DNA from: a virus
DNA: 34,551 bases
Virus record (IMG/VR): IMGVR_UViG_3300042445_000906
Span: 1 to 34,551 of that record
Reading direction: 5' to 3' (one strand)
A program made the translations under genes and the position numbers. The notes beneath the pieces were generated by a model. It did not search any database. It saw only the letters and a list, made by a program, of their open reading frames with translations, and was not told the DNA's origin. Numbering within the stretch: position 1 is the stretch's first letter; each line of letters begins with the position of its first letter. Shown here one piece after another: positions 4,412 through 19,578 of the stretch.

Positions 4412-5070
4412 TTTTCTTTTATTATTTCAGAGTAGTTTTTCTCAAATTTACTACTTATATTCATTCTAAACAGTATCAAAAATACTAAATTATAAGGTAA
4501 TAACTCAACTTCTCTATGTGTATAGTTATAATCTCTCGCAATTAAGTCAATCGTATTGAAATCTCCTAGTTGATTAAACATATCTATACCTGCCCGTTTC
4601 TGTTCTTCCGTAGTTTTTGATTCAAGTGCATTATTGTCACGTTCAACTATTGCGTTTATACTTTCTAATAGGTACAAATAAGCGCCGTAAACATCCTCAA
4701 TGTTATCTTGTAATATGATTTGCTCATCTATATCGCTATACACGCTTAAAACCTTTGTAGGACTATCTAAATTTGTAAATGCTTGTATCTTCTTTTCAAA
4801 TGTGCATTCACCAATATCACTAGGTAATTGAATGCCTTTGTAAAAATCTAGTTTTTCTAGTGTTTCAAATGGGTTTTCTTGTAAAAATTCTAAATAAGGA
4901 ACTATACCATTTAAATCTATAAATACTTGTTCGTCTACAGTTAAGCCCGTTAAACGTTCGATTACTTCACTTTCTGAAGCGTCTTTGAAGAAATCTATAT
5001 CACTGCATTTAATATCCCTCCATGACGTTGGTATAGTGAAATCTTTTAGTTTAGTTTTAAATCGTATCAT
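4408..5070 (-). CDS. Conserved late protein following the large terminase (possible tail assembly or connector protein)
   Basis: A 220-residue acidic, largely helical protein that starts in an ATGA overlap with the terminase large subunit gene and ends in an ATGA overlap with the next gene. No catalytic motif or membrane segment is visible. The N-terminal segment FTIPTSWRDIKCSDIDFF, followed by acidic helices, resembles proteins sitting before tape measures in Bacteroidota phages, which may be tail assembly chaperones. Here it is about 4.4 kb upstream of the tape measure. I see no obvious -1 frameshift partner. Function not established. Confidence 0.45.
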   Translation of the reverse strand: MIRFKTKLKDFTIPTSWRDIKCSDIDFFKDASESEVIERLTGLTVDEQVFIDLNGIVPYLEFLQENPFETLEKLDFYKGIQLPSDIGECTFEKKIQAFTNLDSPTKVLSVYSDIDEQIILQDNIEDVYGAYLYLLESINAIVERDNNALESKTTEEQKRAGIDMFNQLGDFNTIDLIARDYNYTHREVELLPYNLVFLILFRMNISSKFEKNYSEIIKEK

Positions 5071-13796: not shown

Positions 13797-14408
13797 TTAA
13801 AATAATTTTTGTTGTGATACGTGGTTATTTATTCTTTGCATTGCTTTATCGTAATACTCTTTGTCTAATTCACACGCAGTTAAATCGAAGCCATAATCGT
13901 GGCATGCTATTGCAATACTACCGCTTCCTAAATGCGTGTCGAGTATTTTGTCTCCTAACTTTGCATATTTTTCAATGCAGTATTTATATAATAATATTGG
14001 TTTTTGTGTTGGATGTTGTTTTTTACCATCCTCATCCTCCATTGCTGAATACCTTTTAAATACTCTAACATTTTTATTTATTGAACACCAAGCTAACTCA
14101 GCTTCTGAAAAAGATAAGTTTGGATTTAATTTATCCCATATTACCCAATTATTATTTAATGGTAATGGAAAGTAATTACCACCCCAAATAATTTGATTTT
14201 TACTTACTCTAAATAATTCATTAAAATATTCTGAAGATGGTATTTTATTATCCCAATCTTTACCTTGTTTAAATTTATGTTTCCCACTACCCATTGTCAT
14301 TTTACCAGCATTAATACCATAAGGCGGGTCAACTATTGCAAGGTCAAAATAGTTGTTAGGATAGCGCGCCATTAACTCCATATTATCTTCATTTGTAATT
14401 GTCATCAT
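13797..14408 (-). CDS. DNA methyltransferase (N4-cytosine/N6-adenine, beta-class order)
   Basis: A 203-residue enzyme transferring methyl groups from S-adenosylmethionine to DNA. The catalytic DPPY is at residues 27-30, HPTQKP at 132-137, and the SAM-binding DTHLGSGS at 157-164, so the catalytic motif precedes the SAM motif. The short length leaves little room for a separate recognition domain. No restriction partner is nearby, so it is probably a protective or regulatory orphan methylase. The ATG forms an ATGA overlap with the NUMOD4-like gene. Confidence 0.93.
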   Translation of the reverse strand: MMTITNEDNMELMARYPNNYFDLAIVDPPYGINAGKMTMGSGKHKFKQGKDWDNKIPSSEYFNELFRVSKNQIIWGGNYFPLPLNNNWVIWDKLNPNLSFSEAELAWCSINKNVRVFKRYSAMEDEDGKKQHPTQKPILLYKYCIEKYAKLGDKILDTHLGSGSIAIACHDYGFDLTACELDKEYYDKAMQRINNHVSQQKLF

Positions 14409-14677
14409 ATTATTTTTAAATTATCTACTCTATTATTAAATACGTCTTTATCTATTCTAGTTACTTTCTTAAATGATTCAGATATAAATTTACGTGCTAC
14501 TTCACTTGCTAAAAATACATCTTTTTTACGGGAGTTGTTCTCTAGTGTCAAAGTTACTTTTGTTTTATATTGATTGCATTTGATTGGTTTTAAGTTACGA
14601 TTAGTGTTCCTATTCATAACATTTCCAAAATTACTAATGTAATAATGTTCCTCTAAGTGCTTCCATTCTTCTACCAT
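14405..14677 (-). CDS. NUMOD4-like / degenerate HNH-type DNA-binding protein
   Basis: A 90-residue protein. EEWKHLEEHYYISNFGNVMNR (shown in part; residues 3-23) fits the NUMOD4 motif found in HNH homing endonucleases, and the end (TRIDKDVFNNRVDNLKII) resembles the HNH-associated IDGN-NN-NL pattern but lacks the paired histidines. It may therefore be a DNA-binding relic or a standalone binding protein rather than an active nuclease. It overlaps the lipoprotein gene by 7 bases and the methyltransferase by 4. Confidence 0.72.
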   Translation of the reverse strand: MVEEWKHLEEHYYISNFGNVMNRNTNRNLKPIKCNQYKTKVTLTLENNSRKKDVFLASEVARKFISESFKKVTRIDKDVFNNRVDNLKII

Positions 14678-14910: not shown

Positions 14911-14998
14911 TAAAAAGCCCCTATTAATCCTAACACATCCTACCTTGTTATTCATAATAGAGGCTCTTAAAATCTCTTTGTTCTTATAATGTAGGATG
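14911..14998 (-). promoter_or_regulatory. Leader with interleaved hairpins: attenuator-like element before the replication operon
   Basis: On the minus-strand transcript, AGCCUCUAUU (14965-14956) can pair with AAUAGGGGCU (14925-14916), ten pairs with one G-U, followed by a UUUUUAUUU run: a standard intrinsic terminator with a 30-base loop. A second perfect 8-bp pairing, CAUCCUAC (14998-14991) with GUAGGAUG (14943-14936), spans the 5' arm of the terminator and uses the terminator loop. The two helices are interleaved, so they form either a pseudoknot or competing states. The element lies between a good promoter and the lipoprotein-methylase-helicase genes. Its trigger is unknown. Confidence 0.7.
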
Positions 14999-15008
14999 AG
15001 AACGTTGA

Positions 15009-15059: not shown

Positions 15060-15308
15060 CATCTCTACACATCTTTACGCTATCTCTACACCTATCTCTA
15101 CGGGTTAAAGTGTTGATTATAATAGTATTTATGGTTTTTTGTAGAGTTGTAGAGATGAATTTACGATTTTTTTTATTTTCACCTGTTCCGTTTTATATAA
15201 AAGATTGGCATTTTACCTCTACATCTCTACACTTTTACGTTAACCATTGATTTTACTAGGGCTGTAGCTGTAGAGATGACTGTAGAGATGTGGAGAGATG
15301 TAGAGATG
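15060..15308. repeat. Iteron array, probable replication origin
   Basis: Within the 413-base gene-free stretch 14896-15308, the decamer TGTAGAGATG occurs six times exactly in either orientation (starting at 15060, 15148, 15222, 15269, 15281 and 15299), with about seven near copies (15070, 15081, 15093, 15140, 15214, 15262 and 15291). The left cluster reads as the reverse complement at 10-12 base steps; the right cluster reads forward at the same steps, about one helical turn. A/T-rich sequence lies between the clusters. This layout is typical of initiator-binding iterons flanking an unwinding region. No credible gene is seen in it. Confidence 0.8.
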
Positions 15309-19506: not shown

Positions 19507-19526
19507 ATTTTCCTTATTTGTTTTAA

Positions 19527-19556
19527 CAAAGATATACTATTTGTTTTAATAAACAA
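19527..19556 (-). promoter_or_regulatory. Main early promoter
   Basis: On the minus strand TTG (19556-19554) is followed after 19 bases by TATCTTTG (19534-19527), an exact TAnnTTTG with correct spacing. The first start codon lies 20 bases downstream (19506). It sits 22 bases from the lysis terminator, so it opens the circular transcription programme. Confidence 0.8.
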
Positions 19557-19578
19557 TACTTTTTAATACATTTTATTT

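Follow-up and report, generated by a model that had tools for sequence, protein, structure and literature searches.

What controls entry into the lipoprotein/methylase/helicase operon of a Flavobacterium-type phage? The question is raised by a short stretch of IMG/VR record IMGVR_UViG_3300042445_000906, of which positions 1 to 34,551, the whole stretch analysed here, are referred to as the window. An earlier note placed interleaved hairpins at 14911-14998: a good intrinsic terminator between a strong promoter and the operon, together with a perfect 8-bp pairing that encloses the 5' arm of the terminator and uses bases from its loop. It proposed that the two helices must either compete or make a pseudoknot and, by analogy with the P4 immunity leader, that the element could act in copy control or immunity. 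The pairing is present exactly as the note described it, but it turns out to be one copy of a larger family in Flavobacterium phages. The interpretation is only partly supported: an attenuator-like leader is upheld, whereas competing helices and a P4-like role are not.

Architecture of the leader

The element lies on the minus strand. Its promoter is a Bacteroidota -7 box, TATATTTG, at 15016-15009, matching the TAnnTTTG consensus (PMC7366714), with a -33-like TTG (15038-15036) 19 nt upstream. The promoter model of the earlier note was wrong, as a sigma-70 scan found no excess of promoters. The same scan found no terminator, because its loop limit is 8 nt.

Five nucleotides after the box begins a hairpin missed by the note, P1 (15003-14980), in which the 5' arm 15003-14999 (GUUCU) pairs with the 3' arm 14984-14980 (AGAAC). 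Its 14-nt loop starts with the sequence X, CATCCTAC in DNA and CAUCCUAC in RNA, at 14998-14991. An A-rich linker (14979-14969) is followed by an intrinsic terminator (14968-14913) with a G+C-rich helix, P2 (14968-14955 with 14926-14913; core GCCUCUAUUA/UAAUAGGGGC), and a U-tract at 14916-14912. Within it lie an internal loop, UGAA (14954-14951) / GGAU (14930-14927), with a possible tandem G.A, and an apical helix, P3 (14950-14946 with 14935-14931). The 10-nt apical loop holds all of X', GTAGGATG in DNA and GUAGGAUG in RNA, at 14943-14936, which is the exact complement of X.

Folding without pseudoknots returns P1, P2 and P3 as described, with X and X' both in loops, and the terminator hairpin has an energy of -22.9 kcal/mol (z = -2.4). 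The 8-bp pairing is therefore a loop-loop (kissing) contact. As P1, P2, P3 and X:X' use different bases, the helices need not compete, and the kiss is compatible with the terminator. The predicted leader RNA spans about 92 nt (15003-14912), with an inferred 5' end near 15003-15005 and an inferred 3' end in the U-tract. The first gene behind it encodes a 74-aa lipoprotein (14895-14671, minus strand), whose ATG lies 17 nt after the U-tract.

Recurrence beyond chance

The 8-mer alone is not unusual in the window. However, the architecture is. Relatives were retrieved through two neighbouring proteins, and in many of them the leader sits at the same place between the exonuclease gene and the operon, with quite different loop sequences that stay complementary. 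A scan anchored on 12,682 promoter-like boxes gave 50 hits at a score of >=36, against 2 in dinucleotide shuffles, and 22 against 0 at >=40. A strict version applied to 23 phage sequences gave 29 hits against 1 in shuffled DNA. This version missed the window's own copy, because its U-tract is partly counted as stem, while a scan without that filter found it. In the same set, 23 of 32 TAnnTTTG boxes followed by a strong terminator and an ATG carry the kissing partner, and at least two of the other nine are the same elements seen from a second box. The scan rules were written after the first examples had been seen and are not independent of the data, although the shuffled controls were scored by the same rules.

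About 50 curated copies keep the architecture while using 32 different X words. Each X pairs with its own X' over 6-11 nt, whereas swapped partners usually match over 3 nt. Some copies are imperfect; for instance, the copy near position 565 of L008 has one mismatch in X:X' (L and G numbers denote individual loci examined here). P1 begins 5-6 nt after the -7 box in 36 of 50 copies, so the RNA must start at or next to P1. A TTG at comparable spacing occurs in 30 of 50, AAGAA, AAGGAA or a similar linker motif in 40 of 50, and GA on both sides of the internal loop in 23 of 50. In the distant copies at L049 (about 4649-4758), L050 (about 4717-4810) and L055 (971-1065 and 2838-2930), the linker contains an additional hairpin. 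A longer linker for longer terminators was not seen, as the correlation is negative.

X is variable but not free, and many X words begin with G. Some recur in unrelated phages: GTAGTGC in the L006, L075, G014 and FCV-1 copies, and CATCCTAC in the window and L293. A wider listing of such recurrences (GTAGTGC, GTCGTCG, CATCCTAC) comprises L006, L075, L306 and L350; L139, L320 and L055; and the window and L293.

Covariation of the kissing loops

The earlier note had named covariation of both stems in related phages as a test, and it is found in both stems and in the interleaved pairing. Three MAFFT alignments of separate subfamilies, not fitted to the structure, were counted. The kissing helix was paired in 89.3, 95.8 and 90.8% of cells, with changes on both sides at 6 of 7, 6 of 8 and 5 of 7 pairs, or 17 of 22 in total. 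Whole-structure covariation scores were 0.60, 0.58 and 0.44, compared with 0.18-0.22 for shuffles and at most 0.18 for slid partners. P1 pairs are 87-93% kept across the three alignments and covary in two of them; P2 and P3 are also kept and show covariation, so all four helices are selected together. Supporting this, closely related cultured phages carry compensated differences: GTGAGACG/CGTCTCAC in hemulen6-1, GTGGAACG/CGTTCCAC in snusmum6-1 and GTGAGAAG/CTTCTCAC in morran9-1.

Genomic context and mobility

All 50 copies are followed by an ATG ORF, at a median of 21 nt after the terminator and within 50 nt in 49 of them. The genes differ: 11 of 46 are NUMOD4-HNH, 2 are GIY-YIG and 1 is a helicase, with lipoproteins, DUFs and unknown small ORFs making up others. 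Of 78 viral NUMOD4-HNH relatives, 23 carry the leader directly upstream (1 in shuffles), but only 3 of 80 do so in bacterial genomes. The HNH gene of Polaribacter phage P12002L has no convincing leader. A search of 296 Flavobacteriales genomes with a model of the element (R1) gave 5 weak hits, about the number expected by chance and none with a convincing kissing pair, although this search was shallow (only 15 candidates per genome were scored) and does not prove absence.

Phages carry one to three copies, and copies in one phage have different X words. Leaders and genes also recombine as modules. For example, the window's lipoprotein is 96% identical to that of L062, which stands behind a leader with a different X (GGTCCAG), while L118 has the window's leader with another lipoprotein. 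In cultured phage FCV-1, the leader fills the gap between RusA and the HNH gene. In FCOV-F13, homology to FCV-1 is lost from near the RusA gene and resumes 24 nt before the HNH stop, so promoter, leader and HNH gene are absent together. Between snork6-2 and morran9-1, homology breaks just upstream of the leader's promoter.

Proposed mechanism

The reading favoured here, with moderate confidence, is that the element is a portable promoter that fires straight into a kissing-clamped terminator, acting as a cis attenuator for accessory genes and, in this lineage, for the lipoprotein/methylase/helicase operon. In this view, P1 forms first. P3 then emerges, and its loop kisses the P1 loop over 7-9 bp before the 3' arm of the terminator has been made. 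The kiss would hold P3, nucleate P2 and make termination efficient, so that most transcripts would end as RNAs of about 90 nt, and the gene or operon behind would be expressed by read-through when the kiss is not made or is broken. The cassette would move with accessory genes, homing endonucleases above all, and give each a private promoter and brake.

The sequence analysis itself establishes the architecture, the kissing pairing (through covariation), the position at the promoter and before an ATG, the modular gain and loss with genes, and the presence of different X words in one phage. In contrast, termination, the direction of the kissing effect and read-through as the mode of expression are inferred from sequence alone, without transcript, term-seq or reporter data. 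Some considerations weigh against this model. A kissing complex compatible with the terminator gives no built-in alternative state, so a regulator has to be assumed, whether a protein, RNA polymerase state or a second RNA. Furthermore, a leader terminator would be polar on operons such as this one unless it is leaky or controlled. The element also departs from a classical attenuator with mutually exclusive helices: no bases are shared, no general sign of an antiterminator formed by upstream bases was seen, and the P2 5' arm is on average only 37% paired before its 3' arm is made.

Alternative explanations

A possible but unlikely alternative is that the RNA of about 90 nt is itself the product, a stable phage small RNA acting on another RNA or a protein, with the gene behind it a bystander that lives on read-through. 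The promoter at +1, the compact structure and the intrinsic terminator would fit, and X words vary as a targeting sequence might. However, every curated copy is closely followed by an ATG ORF, of very different families, and X varies freely as long as X' follows, which points to an internal partner. In the genomes of 17 phages, X and X' are not enriched elsewhere in the own genome (22 seen against 37.5 expected), so no trans target in the phage is indicated. If anything the words are rarer than expected; avoidance of off-target pairing is possible but weakly supported. A role as guide or partner of HNH proteins (IscB-like) was rejected, as the downstream families differ.

Only slightly less likely is a constitutive boundary cassette, like the PeSLs of T4-type phages, that insulates inserted genes and gives recombination a place to shuffle them, with the kissing loops only making a robust, unregulated terminator. 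The modular recombination of gene and leader and the PeSL precedent (PMC4503421, PMC3950731) speak for this. Against it, a merely strong terminator does not need a covarying kissing partner at a fixed place next to the transcription start, and a constitutive stop would starve the gene behind it.

P4-like immunity or copy control, in which RNA from one phage copy pairs in trans with the leader of another and causes termination before the replication genes, is not supported and appears doubtful. The position before the methylase/helicase operon in this lineage, the complementary loops and the differences in X between most phages and between copies in one phage are in its favour. However, in other phages the element precedes homing endonucleases, lipoproteins and small ORFs, each element has only one complementary pair, without a second or third segment, and identical X words occur in unrelated phages. 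These observations do not disprove trans action. A more speculative possibility, also considered unlikely, is that the kissing words are addresses: each cassette's terminator would be set by its own RNA in cis and, once copies accumulate, in trans, so that every accessory gene senses its own dosage or a co-infecting sibling without cross-talk to other cassettes in the same phage. This would be an orthogonal, self-diversifying RNA regulatory system carried by mobile phage genes.

Chance complementarity or a protein-bound DNA operator, suggested by the 8-mer alone not being rare and by the inverted repeat in DNA, is made very unlikely by the covariation within one transcript over three subfamilies, the shuffle controls and the absence of a constant sequence in X for a protein to read, with P1 and P3 stems framing it.

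Relation to described systems

No match to the window was found in Rfam 15 at the gathering threshold, and seven copy-bearing loci searched at E<=1 gave only two weak matches, well below gathering score and outside the element. No description was found in the literature either, in a search that reached few subscription papers.

The closest precedents are the PeSLs (promoter early stem-loops) of T4-type phages (Arbiol 2010, Comeau 2014; as presented in PMC4503421 and PMC3950731), which likewise combine a promoter and a stem-loop terminator in a small cassette near accessory genes and are associated with gene shuffling. As far as those accounts tell, PeSLs are a promoter and a simple stem-loop, with no covarying loop-loop pairing. 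The present element is PeSL-like rather than a PeSL: it occurs in Bacteroidota phages with genomes of about 30-47 kb, its promoter is TAnnTTTG rather than a T4 early sigma-70 promoter, and a second hairpin with a complementary loop is constant. Homing endonucleases of phage T4 are also limited by RNA structure or an intrinsic terminator at the 5' end (PMC2988022). However, the I-TevI leader hairpin hides the ribosome binding site and the mobE/segF terminators lie inside the coding region, and neither has kissing loops or moves with other kinds of gene.

The P4 immunity leader (CI RNA) also combines short complementary segments with early termination before an operon, but uses several segments (seqA, seqB, seqC) and a processed trans-acting RNA; here there is one pair inside one RNA, before many kinds of gene. 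In the window lineage the element does precede replication genes, while most kinds of downstream gene elsewhere are not replication genes. The plasmid attenuators of pT181/pIP501 and the RNAI/RNAII kissing of ColE1 share loop-loop contacts of 7-8 nt and, in pT181/pIP501, a terminator controlled by RNA pairing. Their partners are separate antisense RNAs that control replication, whereas here both loops lie in one leader with no antisense promoter known. Finally, abiF RNA / RCd22 (PMC12373285) is a phage-encoded non-coding RNA tied to a downstream gene that it regulates, but it is bound by its one cognate protein, while this element has no common protein partner.

Promoter-terminator attenuator cassettes are already known, and what distinguishes this one is the constant, covarying kissing pair, which appears to define an undescribed RNA family with unusually clear proof of a tertiary contact by natural covariation. 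It provides a defined leader in cultured phages (FCV-1, snork6-2, morran9-1, hemulen6-1 and phage 11b) of a phylum where few RNA regulators are known. It also offers an answer to how homing endonucleases and other inserted genes can be kept quiet where the Shine-Dalgarno hiding used in T4 may not be available. A set of naturally orthogonal kissing terminators would also be useful as parts for Bacteroidota genetics.

Other features of the window

Between the exonuclease gene and the leader promoter (15060-15308) lie nine copies, with at most 1 mismatch, of CATCTCTACA on both strands, and 10 occur in the whole window against 1.5 expected. These are iteron-like and may represent a replication origin or regulator binding sites. 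Just behind the lipoprotein gene, a 90-aa ORF (14405-14677) contains only a NUMOD4-like part of an HNH homing endonuclease, and is perhaps the remnant of a leader-HNH cassette. A stretch at 19523-19564, upstream of ORF 19506-19264, is 81% identical to the leader's promoter region but has no kissing leader, and was read as a second promoter of the same type. The ORF at 17057-17899 matches phrog_424, phosphoadenosine phosphosulfate reductase.
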